58,749 nt of DNA from a virus. Below are positions 3,904-28,725 of the stretch, one piece after another. The position numbers and the translations under genes were made by a program. Under the pieces are notes generated by a model. The model searched no databases, was not told where the DNA came from, and was given only the letters and a program-made list of their open reading frames with translations. Every line of letters starts with the position of its first letter. The stretch's first letter is position 1. The stretch is taken from positions 1 through 58,749 of the IMG/VR virus record IMGVR_UViG_3300037487_001109, one strand, 5' to 3'.

Positions 3904-4352
3904 ATTACGCGGCCCTGTATATGGTCAGTAATTATGTAGGTGCAGCCTACAGTCAGTCCATTTGCTAATACTAAGGCATTCAGTTCGGCAGTAGTGACTT
4001 CTACAACACAGTCTCCACCTCCGCCGCCACCACAATCACAATTACATGCAATCTCATCTTCTACCCAAGTAGTAAGGCAACCCTTACAGAAGATTCCTGT
4101 GACCTCTGCCGCAGTAAGTGCAACCGTAGGGTCTATTAGTAAATTTTCATCGTATGAAACAACGTAGCGCCATGTAGGGCACTCGCAGTCATTACCCGTC
4201 TTGTAAACGCTTGTAAGCACACCATCAATAGTAGTGCGCCCGCAATCAGTATTGATTGCAGCACTATCATCAAGGCAGAGAATTACAGCAGGATTTGATT
4301 GACCAGCGCATGAAATACGGCTGGTAGTAGTGAAGACAACTAGCTTAGACAC
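3900..4352 (-). CDS. Cys-rich tail fibre N-terminal protein
   Basis: A 150-residue protein with 12 cysteines. Residues 1-100 share the module found at the start of the collar fibre (1682-2863): VILCLDDSA, WRYVVSYDENLL, VTGIFCKGCL. A Gly6 linker follows, and the last 35 residues (VEVTTAELNALVLANGLTVGCTYIITDHIQG) match the start of a fibre domain of the form 'ELxxLVxxxxLxxGxxYxITD' that normally continues further. It then stops at TGA, overlapping the next ATG. It is probably an adaptor that anchors the following beta-helix protein to the tail. It lies just downstream of the capsid gene. Confidence 0.7.
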   Translation of the reverse strand: MSKLVVFTTTSRISCAGQSNPAVILCLDDSAAINTDCGRTTIDGVLTSVYKTGNDCECPTWRYVVSYDENLLIDPTVALTAAEVTGIFCKGCLTTWVEDEIACNCDCGGGGGGDCVVEVTTAELNALVLANGLTVGCTYIITDHIQGRVI

Positions 4353-14379: not shown

Positions 14380-14413
14380 GTCCGCAGTCTACAGGTAGTT
14401 AGGTACACAGTCA

Positions 14414-14539
14414 ATGACTGACTATATAACTTTTTGTTTGATAATGTGAAATAATTGGGTGGGGTATGTATGGTCAAGTACTGATTATATAACTTTTTGT
14501 TTGATAATGTGAAATAATTGGGCGGGGTATGTATGGTCA
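14414..14539 (-). promoter_or_regulatory. Two tandem 63-bp repeats, each with a leftward sigma70-type promoter
   Basis: Units 14414-14476 and 14477-14539 are nearly identical. On the minus strand each contains TTCACA, 16 bases, then TATATA (-35 at 14445-14450 and -10 at 14423-14428 for the left copy; 63 bases further right for the other). The -35 matches consensus at five of six positions. Both fire toward the structural genes starting at 14379. Confidence 0.6.
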
Positions 14540-24088: not shown

Positions 24089-24460
24089 ATGGAACAAGAC
24101 ATAAGCGAAATTGAAATCAACGGCGTGAAGTACGTCAAGAAAGGAAGTGAGCAAGTTAATGCGGTTAATAGCGACGGCTTGGAGTACGTAATAATCCGAG
24201 CTGATAGAGCCGGAGCCTTTGCTGGCTACCTTGTAGAAAAAGAAGGGACGGAAGTTACTCTAATAAATGCAAGGCGGTTATGGTATTGGTCTGGCGCTGC
24301 GTCATTGTCCGAGCTTGCGATTAATGGAGTTAAGAAACCTAATGACTGTAAATTTCCTGCACCTAATTCCAAGATTACAGTTTTAGGCGTGATTGAAATA
24401 ATACCAGCAACGGAAACAGCTCGTAAAATTATAGAGGGAGTAAAAATATGGCAAGCGTAG
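24089..24460 (+). CDS. DUF6948-domain protein
   Basis: A 123-residue protein. The DUF6948 pattern is clear: YVIIRADRAGAFAGYLVEKE, then INARRLWYWSGAASLSELA, then VIEIIPATETARKIIEGV. Widespread in phages of Gram-negative and gut bacteria; function unknown. Its last 13 bases overlap the Gly-X repeat gene, a pairing I recall from other phages. Confidence 0.8.
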   Translation: MEQDISEIEINGVKYVKKGSEQVNAVNSDGLEYVIIRADRAGAFAGYLVEKEGTEVTLINARRLWYWSGAASLSELAINGVKKPNDCKFPAPNSKITVLGVIEIIPATETARKIIEGVKIWQA

Positions 24461-24765
24461 GCTCTGGCTATGTCGATGGCTCTGGCGATGGCGATGGCTC
24501 TGGCTATGGCGATGGCGATGGCTCTGGCTATGGCTCTGGCGATGGCTATGGCTCTGGCTATGGCGATGGCGATGGCTCTGGCGATGGCTCTGGCGATGGC
24601 TCTGGCGATGGCTCTGGCTATGGCTCTGGCTATGGCTCTGGCGATGGCTCTGGCTATGGCTCTGGCGATGGCTATGGCGATGGCTCTGGCGATGGCTATG
24701 GCTATGGCTCTGGCTCTGGCGATGGCTATGGCGATGGCTATGGCGTGAAAGTATTAATCGACTAA
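24448..24765 (+). CDS. Glycine-X dipeptide repeat protein
   Basis: A 105-residue protein starting inside the DUF6948 gene (ATGGCAAGC). From residue 5 to about 98 it alternates glycine (always GGC) with Ser, Asp or Tyr (TCT, GAT, TAT), then ends VKVLID. The near-perfect 6-base periodicity continues in one frame without a stop and begins and ends at non-repeat codons, supporting real translation. Such a chain would be disordered and very acidic. It may be a slippage-prone linker or low-complexity assembly segment. Function unknown. Confidence 0.65.
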   Translation: MASVGSGYVDGSGDGDGSGYGDGDGSGYGSGDGYGSGYGDGDGSGDGSGDGSGDGSGYGSGYGSGDGSGYGSGDGYGDGSGDGYGYGSGSGDGYGDGYGVKVLID

Positions 24766-25979: not shown

Positions 25980-26291
25980 ATGACGGACATTAAGGATACC
26001 CTTAAAGAGAGGGGCAAATCGTATGCTGAGTTTGAGTTTCAAGCCACCATATCCCAGCAACTAAAGAATGTACTACGTGCCTAAGAGAAGTGGGAGCACC
26101 TTGCAGATGACCAGAAAGAAGCACTTGAAATGGTTGTCCACAAGATTGCCAGAATCCTTAACGGAGACGTTAACTTCAGGGACAGTTGGTATGATCAACT
26201 TGGCTACCTGCAGTTAGTGGTAAACCGAATGGATAGAGATGCTGATCTTCTAAAAGAAGATATAAAGATTACAGACGACATACCCTTCTAA
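25980..26291 (+). pseudogene. DUF6378-like gene interrupted by an in-frame TAA
   Basis: ATG 25980 starts DIKDTLKERGKSYAEFEF..., reaching TAA at 26082-26084 after 34 codons. The same frame continues without another stop to TAA 26289-26291, encoding EKWEHLADDQKEALEMVVHK, then ILNGD, DSWYDQLGY and LVVNRM. Together these read as one DUF6378-type protein of about 102 residues, whose end overlaps the helicase start as TAATG. A nonsense mutation or a readthrough codon are the options; TAA serves as a normal stop elsewhere. Confidence 0.7.
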
Positions 26292-28495
26292 TGGAAAAGC
26301 TAATCTACCCACAAGACTGCACCCTCCTGCCCTTTCAAGCAGACTGCATACACAAGATGTTAGCATTCTTGCGGAATGGCGGAGGGTGCTACAATGCCTG
26401 TGAAATGGGGCTCGGGAAGAGTGTGCAGGCTATTGTGGCTATGAATACTATTCTCAGGTACGAGCTCTTACCTAAAATATTGATAGTATGCCCGGCAGTA
26501 ATGAGGCTGGTGTGGAGAGCAGAGTTACAAAAATGGCTTACGTCTCTACATCCAAGCGTACAAGTTCTAACATCTAGTAAACAGCTTAAACAAAAATCAA
26601 TGTGGCATGCTGTAACTATTATCTCATATGACTTAGCTGCAACTGATGAGTTTAAAAAATGGGCTGAACCATCATATGATATGCTTATCATGGATGAAGC
26701 GCATTACTGCGTTGCGGAAGACACACTAATAAACACTCCAGCAGGATTGGTGCCTATAAAAAGTCTAGTAGAGGGGGATATAGTTACAACAATTTCAGAT
26801 AATGGGGCTGACACTGGGCGCATTATACGCAAAATTAAAGGTAATGAAAAAGAGCCCAAAAGAAAAATTACCCTCAGTAACGGCTATACGCTTGAAGGGC
26901 TTGACTGGCACCTTGTTAGAACGCCTTTACAGTGGACCGAACTTGGAAAACTACAAGTATCCGATCCAGTGTCCGTGGTGCAAAAAGGTTTGGGACGCAC
27001 GCTACCCATCATGGGTAATGTGGAGAACTTTCTGCAGCGGCAGATGTGCAAAGCTAAACCATTGTCACAACGGTGGGTGGTCAGATCATATGCGAAAAAA
27101 GAACCCTATGAAGATTCCTGCGGCAAGAATGAAGATGCGGGCCACACTGAAACGTATAGGACACAAACCTCCACTACAGGGCGGGAACGGCAAGAAAGCA
27201 CCATTGGCACAGGTAAAATTAAAGCAATTATGCAAATTGGTATTTCCGCAGTATCAGGTAGTGTTAGAGTATGCAGTTGGGCTAGGATGCAAGCAGCCCG
27301 GATTTCCTACAGCGTACAAACTAGATGTGGGTATACCAGAATTAAAACTAGGGGTAGAGGCAGACGGGTATTCTCATCAAAGCCTAGTCAGGAAACAACA
27401 AGATTTGAAGAAAGACAAGAAATTGAAACAGCTAGGGTGGAGAATATTGAGATTTACGAACACGGAGATACTGGAGAAGCCGGCAAATGTTATTACGACC
27501 TTGAGCTCGATAGACACCACAACTATATAGCTAACGGTATTATAGTACATAATTGTAAGTCCCCCAAAGCTAAGCGTACCAAAGCTATCCTAAAACACAT
27601 CTGGCCTAGAGCAGTATTTAAAATCTGCCTCTCCGGCACACCCTTCACTAATAACGTCATAGATGGTTACACATTATTTAATAAACTCGCCCCATATGAC
27701 TTTCCTGATTTCTGGTCATTTGCTAACACCTATTCACATAGAAAGAACAACGGGTTTGGTATTACGTGGGAAGGGTTAAAGAATGCTGATAAACTACGTG
27801 CTATAATTAATAATAATTTCTTTTTACGTAAGACAAAAGCACAGGTGCTCCCAGAACTCCCGCCCAAAGTCTACCAGAAAATAACGCTTGATGAGTCCTA
27901 TGCACACAAACTCACTAAAGAGCAGGAAGCTGAATACGAGAGATACTACCAGGACCTGAAACGCCTGCTTGCCGGTAAAGAAACTACACGCATCCCGCCT
28001 CCTCCAGTATCCATTATGACAGTGCGTAGGGAGCAGGGGTTAAAAAAAGTTAAGCCTATTATCGAATTTGTTAAAAATATGCTTGAACAAAATGTCCCTG
28101 TTGTGCTATTTGGAATTTTCAGGGATGTGCTTACTGAATTTGAAGAGACTTTTAAATCCTATAAACCAGCAGTTATTCACGGCGACGTATCAGCAAAAAA
28201 AAGGCAAGAAGAAATTGAAAGATTTCAAGCCGGAGACACTGATTTATTTATTGGACAGCTTACAGCCGCAGGAGTTGGAATTACTCTCACTAGAGCTTCG
28301 GATGTTGTACTGGCGGAATTGTCCTATAGCCCTGCGGAGATATCACAAGCCGTGGACAGAACGCATAGAATATCTCAGAAAAACTCTGTCACCGTCCACT
28401 ACTTCGCGGTCGAAAACTCGGTTGACGAAAAAATAATTGATATTGTTATGGATAAAGCAAAGATATTTTCAGAGATTTTAAAAGAGGAGAAGTGA
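26291..28495 (+). CDS. SNF2-family DNA helicase interrupted by an intein
   Basis: A 734-codon frame; the mature helicase would be 452 residues. The N-terminal RecA-like domain has Walker A EMGLGKSVQ (38-46), and DEAH at 135-138 lies directly before the intein. After the intein come SGTPFTNN (motif III area), LTAAGVGITLTRASDVVLAE and SQAVDRTHRISQ (motifs V and VI), as in the single-chain SNF2 helicases used by many phages next to DUF2800, DUF2815 and family A polymerase genes. It would remodel or unwind replication forks. Start overlaps the DUF6378-like stop. Confidence 0.9.
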   Translation: MEKLIYPQDCTLLPFQADCIHKMLAFLRNGGGCYNACEMGLGKSVQAIVAMNTILRYELLPKILIVCPAVMRLVWRAELQKWLTSLHPSVQVLTSSKQLKQKSMWHAVTIISYDLAATDEFKKWAEPSYDMLIMDEAHYCVAEDTLINTPAGLVPIKSLVEGDIVTTISDNGADTGRIIRKIKGNEKEPKRKITLSNGYTLEGLDWHLVRTPLQWTELGKLQVSDPVSVVQKGLGRTLPIMGNVENFLQRQMCKAKPLSQRWVVRSYAKKEPYEDSCGKNEDAGHTETYRTQTSTTGRERQESTIGTGKIKAIMQIGISAVSGSVRVCSWARMQAARISYSVQTRCGYTRIKTRGRGRRVFSSKPSQETTRFEERQEIETARVENIEIYEHGDTGEAGKCYYDLELDRHHNYIANGIIVHNCKSPKAKRTKAILKHIWPRAVFKICLSGTPFTNNVIDGYTLFNKLAPYDFPDFWSFANTYSHRKNNGFGITWEGLKNADKLRAIINNNFFLRKTKAQVLPELPPKVYQKITLDESYAHKLTKEQEAEYERYYQDLKRLLAGKETTRIPPPPVSIMTVRREQGLKKVKPIIEFVKNMLEQNVPVVLFGIFRDVLTEFEETFKSYKPAVIHGDVSAKKRQEEIERFQAGDTDLFIGQLTAAGVGITLTRASDVVLAELSYSPAEISQAVDRTHRISQKNSVTVHYFAVENSVDEKIIDIVMDKAKIFSEILKEEK
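26708..27553 (+). other. Intein in the helicase DEAH motif
   Basis: 282 codons from Cys140 (TGC 26708-26710) to Asn421 (AAT 27551-27553), followed by Cys +1 (TGT 27554). Block A is CVAEDTLINTPAGLVPIKSL, block B contains the splicing His in GLDWHLVRT, and blocks F/G are CYYDLELDRHHNYIANGIIV then HN. Removal restores DEAHY-CKSPKAKR. The about 160 codons between block B and block F match no domain in this frame, because the DNA there encodes an endonuclease in another frame. Confidence 0.9.
26802..27530 (+). CDS. Homing endonuclease nested out of frame inside the intein
   Basis: A 242-codon frame shifted by +1 from the helicase/intein frame. It has a zinc-ribbon-like segment (CPWCKKVWDARYP, then FCSGRCAK), a basic linker, and a DUF559/Vsr-type PD-(D/E)XK nuclease core: YKLDVGIPELKLGVEADG, YSHQSL, then DKKLKQLGWRILRFTNTEI. 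Such nucleases are homing enzymes in phages. The start could be ATG 26802 or 26844; no good ribosome-binding site is seen. Both frames are open for over 700 bases. The conserved nuclease segment spans about 26960-27480, between the splicing blocks. Confidence 0.75.
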   Translation: MGLTLGALYAKLKVMKKSPKEKLPSVTAIRLKGLTGTLLERLYSGPNLENYKYPIQCPWCKKVWDARYPSWVMWRTFCSGRCAKLNHCHNGGWSDHMRKKNPMKIPAARMKMRATLKRIGHKPPLQGGNGKKAPLAQVKLKQLCKLVFPQYQVVLEYAVGLGCKQPGFPTAYKLDVGIPELKLGVEADGYSHQSLVRKQQDLKKDKKLKQLGWRILRFTNTEILEKPANVITTLSSIDTTTI

Positions 28496-28497
28496 CT

Positions 28498-28725
28498 ATG
28501 GGCACCGCATGCAACGTCTCAGAATGTGCTAGGCTCTTTGAGAAGAAACTTAAAGATCGGTTAAATGTTTTAGCTAAAGACGCAACTGATGTCTTTGTAG
28601 AAGAGTTAAAAGAGATGTTGATGGGTAACGCTATGGAGTTTGCTAGCGGTATTACATTTGAATATGAATCACAGATAACTCATAGCGATGTACATTTAGT
28701 TTTAAGGTTTCCAAATGACAAATAA
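28498..28725 (+). CDS. Small acidic protein in the replication operon
   Basis: A 75-residue protein from ATG 28498 (GAGGAG upstream; GTG 28492 also in frame). Helical (ARLFEKKLKDRLNVLAKDATD, FVEELKEMLMGNAMEFA) with a strand-rich end. It lies between helicase and DUF2800 nuclease and overlaps the latter by 11 bases. Function unknown. Confidence 0.6.
   Translation: MGTACNVSECARLFEKKLKDRLNVLAKDATDVFVEELKEMLMGNAMEFASGITFEYESQITHSDVHLVLRFPNDK

Follow-up and report, generated by a model that had tools for sequence, protein, structure and literature searches.

Canonical class 1 inteins, for example PI-SceI and Mtu RecA, carry a nested endonuclease, and to our knowledge intein endonucleases are usually fused in frame. 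Fractured genes with EDxHD/Vsr-type homing endonucleases were reportedly described by Dassa in 2009. According to PMC11855218, ShiLan-type insertions in phage methylases are open in the host frame and encode an HNH endonuclease in another frame, and they are not inteins. The same paper describes overlapping frames as frequent in actinobacteriophages and cites a preprint for this (Gosselin 2025). Here we analyzed a helicase gene in a viral window of 58,749 nt (the whole stretch of DNA, which is the IMG/VR record itself). The best explanation of this locus, in which we have high confidence, is a homing intein with an overprinted nuclease in the +1 frame that is translated separately.

The helicase intein and the nuclease in the +1 frame

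The gene at 26291-28495 (+ strand, as for the parts of this locus listed below) is a single open frame encoding an SNF2-type helicase precursor of 734 aa (SNF2-rel_dom, E=5.7e-25; Helicase_C, E=2e-15) with an intein inside. The N-extein (26291-26707) ends with the motif II residues ...DEAHY, the 282-aa intein (26708-27553) runs from C1 to HN, and the C-extein (27554-28495) begins at C+1 (CKSPKAK...). In profile searches the intein matched Pfam Intein_splicing (E=9.5e-10) and NCBIfam intein_Cterm (E=5.5e-7), as well as intein_Nterm at E=3.8e-4, which is under that model's cut-off. It has the class 1 marks, namely Cys1, a TxxH-type block B, the HN end, C/S/T at +1 and an uninterrupted host frame. 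The AlphaFold2 model is confident at the N-terminal splicing segment (residues 1-91, 26708-26980, pLDDT 92-98, closest solved folds being inteins) and at the C-terminal one (residues 239-282, 27422-27553). The model and the profile match indicate a Hint fold, and the model resembles the splicing domains of Mtu RecA and Ssp DnaB. The host-frame linker between the segments (residues 92-238, 26981-27421), 147 residues without stops, is predicted to be disordered with a pLDDT of about 50, and the +1 frame there encodes the nuclease. Across the collected set, Intein_splicing was matched in 71 of 76 inteins by profile search, and the intein C block was present in the host frame of 99/99 first-set loci.

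The +1 frame is open from stop to stop at 26784-27530 and encodes a homing-endonuclease-like protein of 242 aa from the first ATG (26802-27530). A zinc ribbon with four Cys lies at 26970-27047; among 85 sequences its first Cys pair is invariant and the second is conserved in at least 90%. The DUF559 nuclease core (27315-27500) contains the conserved E, D, H and D at 27357, 27363, 27375 and 27402. DUF559 matched the window nuclease with E=1.2e-10 in the profile search and was found in 73/73 nucleases scanned. The residues E172, D174, H178 and D187 are invariant in 85/85, and we take them to be the published EDxHD motif. The AlphaFold2 model of the nuclease has a mean pLDDT of 83, with residue blocks 121 to 228 all above 90; the first 29 residues from ATG 26844 are of low confidence and look unconstrained in the +1 frame. 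Aligned with VIA-align, the model gave Z 12.0 to 3hrl, 11.5 to the catalytic domain of I-Bth0305I (3r3p) and 10.1 to Vsr. A Foldseek search against the PDB returned no match below E=0.001 (best E 2.5e-3), and the profile match to 3r3p had E=0.037. The predicted fold is of the Vsr/I-Bth0305I type, as judged by the VIA-align Z scores of 12.0 and 11.5 and the DUF559 match.

A sequence-only reading had already described a helicase frame open for 734 codons, intact intein splicing blocks, a middle that looks meaningless in the host frame and a 242-codon zinc-ribbon plus DUF559/Vsr-type nuclease in the +1 frame, and this observation is confirmed here. It had also placed the nuclease exactly between the splicing blocks. 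The endonuclease does lie between the two segments, but not exactly, as both of its ends extend into structured intein segments (26802-26980 and 27422-27530).

The helicase is surrounded by a phage replication module with DUF2800, an Enc34-type ssDNA-binding protein and a family A DNA polymerase; a D5_N-type protein is encoded elsewhere in the window, away from this neighbourhood. The gene directly upstream (25980-26290) has an in-frame TAA at 26082-26084 and, read through it, is DUF6378-like with E=1.4e-4, under the cut-off. Tandem repeats were also observed: about 25 copies of the 12-bp unit GGCTCTGGCGAT at 24460-24745, where several frames are open and SGYGDGDG-type repeats are encoded, 2.1 copies of a 63-bp unit at 14410-14539 and 4.2 copies of a 42-bp unit at 1343-1518. 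In a search for group I or II intron RNA, Rfam gave no match up to E=1 in 26200-28600; the insert itself is an open stretch of the host frame that codes for the intein. At the gathering threshold, L061, L086, L057, L089 and L004 gave no Rfam match except a tRNA in L057. The insert (26708-27553) weakly matches the NCBIfam intein-containing RtcB model NF038162 (E=4.9e-5), and the full helicase protein weakly matches the radical SAM model NF038136 (E=0.0018). The inteins behind these two models might likewise hide a +1 nuclease.

Recurrence of the layout and constraint on the two frames

The nuclease protein was used as the sole query of GenBank phages, and seven of the 40 matching records were examined: Pseudomonas MR14, Vibrio CP-T1, 1.194.O, 1.088.O, 159E43-1b and 104E43.1, and Corynebacterium phi673. 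In 7/7 the host gene carries an intein, is uninterrupted and has the nuclease in its +1 frame; the annotations call these genes no more than helicase, coil-containing, P-loop or hypothetical protein. A first IMG/VR scan with the nuclease, from which the best 80 of 260 relatives were taken, gave 76/80 loci with a +1 nuclease over a stop-free host frame. A second scan used other members as queries and the best 80 of at least 381 relatives; it yielded 77 new identifiers, 38 of which were dropped as repeats of earlier cores, and 38 of the 39 new-core loci were overlapping. Among these best matches, the IMG/VR total was 114 of 119 distinct loci with a +1 nuclease in an uninterrupted intein-bearing host frame.

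A scan of genome records from bacteria and archaea yielded 40 loci. The 15 strong matches were all overlapping, and 24 others (L105-L128) match only the C-terminal domain of the nuclease and are non-overlapping. The latter were taken as cellular DUF559 genes; their -1 frame showed a mild deficit of stops (57 vs 75.9 expected). The remaining locus, L103, is a short DUF559-like +1 match (4001-4162, 101 codons) in a 2151 aa frame of a Planctomycetota MAG contig; it is no obvious member and was excluded from every count of overlapping loci. None of the 119 viral, 7 GenBank and 15 genome-record loci fuses its nuclease to the host frame or encodes it in the third frame. Single-sequence scans of viral contigs and genome contigs returned no relatives. 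Because the same layout recurs in many phage and bacterial genes, it appears to be a stable kind of mobile element with a conserved architecture, neither an error nor a one-off.

To evaluate the open host frame, expected numbers of stops were obtained by synonymous codon shuffling within each nuclease, with sequences clustered at 90% identity. Over 116 clusters and 18,858 nuclease codons, the host frame contained 0 stops compared with 747.3 expected, and 112 of the 116 clusters were individually below 0.05. The third frame of the same clusters had 1335 stops vs 1219.5 expected. For the window nuclease core, the host frame had 0 stops vs 6.4 expected, with 0/1000 shuffles as low, and the third frame had 20 vs 19.4. 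Five non-overlapping relatives had observed/expected stops of 5/6.4, 18/19.0, 24/24.7, 21/21.6 and 10/12.0. A conserved Tyr-Lys of the nuclease illustrates the codon choice, as TAT for this Tyr would create a host-frame TAA. The window uses TAC at 27315, giving host-frame CAA, and TAC was found in 81/81 scorable clusters (4/85 were unscorable), compared with TAT in three of four exceptions. These codon statistics strongly support the view that selection maintains an open host frame across the nuclease, and they bear out the earlier claim that this frame had been kept free of stops over an out-of-frame gene.

A codon-level comparison of relatives in both frames had been suggested as a check. 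The nearest relative of the window, L089 from a Ca. Dependentiae MAG, has the same SNF2 host and site, with 56-57% nuclease identity. Differences between the two fall mostly at the third position of host codons up to 26977, of nuclease codons over 26978-27517 and of host codons again past 27517. Near 26978, changes that had mostly spared the intein thus begin to spare the nuclease. In close pairs elsewhere, changes in the core again followed the nuclease codons, with counts such as 3, 0 and 31 at positions 1, 2 and 3. These patterns argue that both products, the intein and the nuclease, are constrained.

Translation of the nuclease and alternative explanations

In 83/83 clusters with both junctions found (of 85), the +1 frame is closed by a stop within the intein before the nuclease begins, and simple read-in from the host start is therefore impossible. 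A start codon precedes the zinc ribbon in 85/85 clusters. A Shine-Dalgarno sequence of at least 5 nt lies ahead of such a start in 43/85 clusters, compared with 11% of matched internal start codons; for at least 6 nt the values were 18/85 and 1.7%, and 21/85 clusters are without any of at least 4 nt. Judged by eye and without a count, many of these sites lie inside intein codons that specify GD or DEV. In 13 clusters, a start preceded by a Shine-Dalgarno sequence is found no more than 3 codons after the +1-frame stop. Given these enriched sites and upstream +1 stops, internal initiation is likely in the family. It is less certain for the window phage, whose signal is weak: no convincing Shine-Dalgarno sequence before a suitable start was found in the window, nor was the Vibrio-type GAGGT start signal. 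The candidate ATG at 26844-26846 has AAAGG too close upstream; in L089, an ATG in the matching region is preceded by GAGG at the usual spacing. The best-scored start of the window is TTG 26913 with AAGG, and TTG 26943 is another candidate.

We infer the following course for the window phage. Ribosomes from the helicase start would read frame 0 across the entire insert, and the N- and C-terminal intein segments of the precursor would come together in a single Hint domain whose disordered loop spans about 147 residues. The precursor would presumably then self-splice to an active helicase. Separate translation in the +1 frame, most likely by internal initiation within the intein, would give the zinc-ribbon plus Vsr/EDxHD-type nuclease, which presumably cuts intein-free alleles at the DNA of Walker B/motif II, and repair would copy the insert in. 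With less assurance, we favor a broader reading: a widespread and old class of homing inteins with a +1-overprinted endonuclease, translated from ribosome-binding sites hidden in conserved intein codons (GD = GGA GAT, DEV = GAC GAG GTT). Splicing and DNA cutting would then belong to separate proteins, with genes tied together because many disabling changes in either frame threaten the other too.

The alternative that survives best, though we consider it unlikely, is a programmed +1 ribosomal frameshift that makes a fusion of the N-terminal intein part with the nuclease without internal initiation. The lack of a good Shine-Dalgarno sequence in the window and the sharp switch of constraint near 26978 would suit it; together with the 21 clusters that have none, this lack would also allow some other route of initiation. 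The enrichment of Shine-Dalgarno sequences before nuclease starts across the family and the start codon ahead of every zinc ribbon speak against it, and the 13 clusters with a start so close behind the +1 stop leave hardly any room for a shift.

It is quite improbable that the nuclease is a dead remnant over a working intein, as in that case the nuclease frame would hardly be better conserved than the host frame in the core, with its catalytic-type residues invariant in 85/85. By contrast, in the nuclease-free mini-inteins that occupy the same site in Vibrio phages, the +1 frame is filled with stops. Ten loci do have a stop inside the matched nuclease stretch (L023, L035, L037, L051, L081, L093, L099, L141, L157 and L194), several of these stops being near an end of the match.

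Slightly less probable still is that the intein is split (fractured), the nuclease gene is separate and a stop between the two halves is missing by chance. Split forms exist among the relatives, since in L061 and L086 the same nuclease lies between the two halves and L190 has such an N-half together with the nuclease. Their stops are at expectation, however, and the overlapping class has 0 vs 747 expected. An ordinary in-frame fusion disguised by two compensating indel errors, a scenario suggested by the usual arrangement of such enzymes and by the single metagenomic contig, and one named at the outset as fatal to the sequence-only reading, is excluded by the same phase in L089 and 135 further loci (136 in all) and by overlapping ends conserved in both frames.

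Mobility, history and comparison with known systems

Returning to the overprinted homing intein, its insert sits in Walker B/motif II, as DE/CHH in most helicases and as DE/SSILK or DEAHY/CKS in others (the slash marks the junction). Twenty host proteins chosen for unusual-looking sites were scanned: nine matched SF2/SNF2 helicase or ResIII models, one a helicase-methylase (L175), one a terminase (L035) and two DnaX-type clamp loaders (L100, L101), and seven matched intein models only. At one site in Vibrio phages three states were observed, namely an overlapping intein, a mini-intein of 143-150 aa without nuclease (K389, K459, 13VV501A), whose +1 frame is full of stops, and an empty site (DECHH in 141O35-1 and 234P10, DEAHH in 142E35-1). 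The occupied relative of 142E35-1 has Cys instead, which looks as though the +1 residue had arrived with the insert. The empty site of L206 reads DEAHH compared with DECHH in its intein-bearing relative L005, which suggests that the +1 Cys was co-converted with the insert. Nuclease identity exceeded host identity in L075/L092 (61% vs 26%) and L005/L032 (67% vs 35%), and L076/L094 share 61% nuclease identity with exteins that do not match. Such mismatches indicate transfer between distant hosts, and together with the empty sites and the nuclease-free mini-inteins they fit homing. Separately, L012 (2044-5751) has two inteins in one host frame; the downstream one has an overlapping nuclease, and the +1 and +2 frames of the upstream one (Intein_splicing, residues 159-401) contain stops.

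In five viral exceptions (of 119) the nuclease is a separate gene. L061 and L086 are split inteins whose two halves have kept the phase of the overlapping form, L190 was seen to have such an N-half beside the nuclease, L079 has a free-standing nuclease gene beside an intein-free helicase (DEAHR), and L057 also has a free-standing one. In the nuclease tree (89 rows; L190, found later, is outside it), the exceptions fall at three places among the overlapping forms. The sequence-only reading had suggested an intermediate in which a mini-intein had been invaded by a free endonuclease gene. A transient stage of this kind is unsupported, because the layout spans the deep tree, with the split and free-standing forms nested inside; the loci come from records of several bacterial phyla.

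The family represents a second stable solution for how an intein carries its endonuclease. Where annotation assumes an in-frame endonuclease domain, such inserts are read as disordered middles and the enzyme is missed. The family offers more than 100 natural cases for measuring stop avoidance, codon choice and two-frame constraint. It makes testable how two products come from one message and whether overprinting delays nuclease loss in the homing cycle. It also provides compact nucleases whose apparent target is the motif II DNA of helicases and other ATPases.

In the literature searched, no account turned up of an endonuclease that overlaps its intein, although the Gosselin 2025 preprint, whose subject is actinobacteriophage inteins of non-canonical architecture, may describe such overlaps. 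PMC11855218 already reports out-of-frame HNH insertions that lack an intein, and priority for overlapping-endonuclease inteins is uncertain. By that account, the ShiLan-type insertions share with the window a host-frame-open insertion with an endonuclease in another frame, but they have an HNH enzyme in the third frame and no intein splicing domain. The window matched DUF559 and Intein_splicing instead, and has an intein, a +1 nuclease and a broad conserved family.

With the EDxHD/Vsr homing endonucleases (I-Bth0305I), the window nuclease shares the predicted fold, the E-D-H-D residues and the association with inteins, and some relatives are split inteins. Unlike the fractured-gene systems, the host gene of the window is continuous and overlaps the nuclease, which is preceded by a zinc ribbon. 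With canonical class 1 inteins, it shares the Hint fold, Cys1, the HN end, C/S+1, insertion in a conserved motif and an endonuclease between the splicing segments. Whereas a canonical large intein has its endonuclease fused within the intein frame, the one in the window lies in the +1 frame as a putative separate product, and the in-frame middle is a predicted disordered filler.
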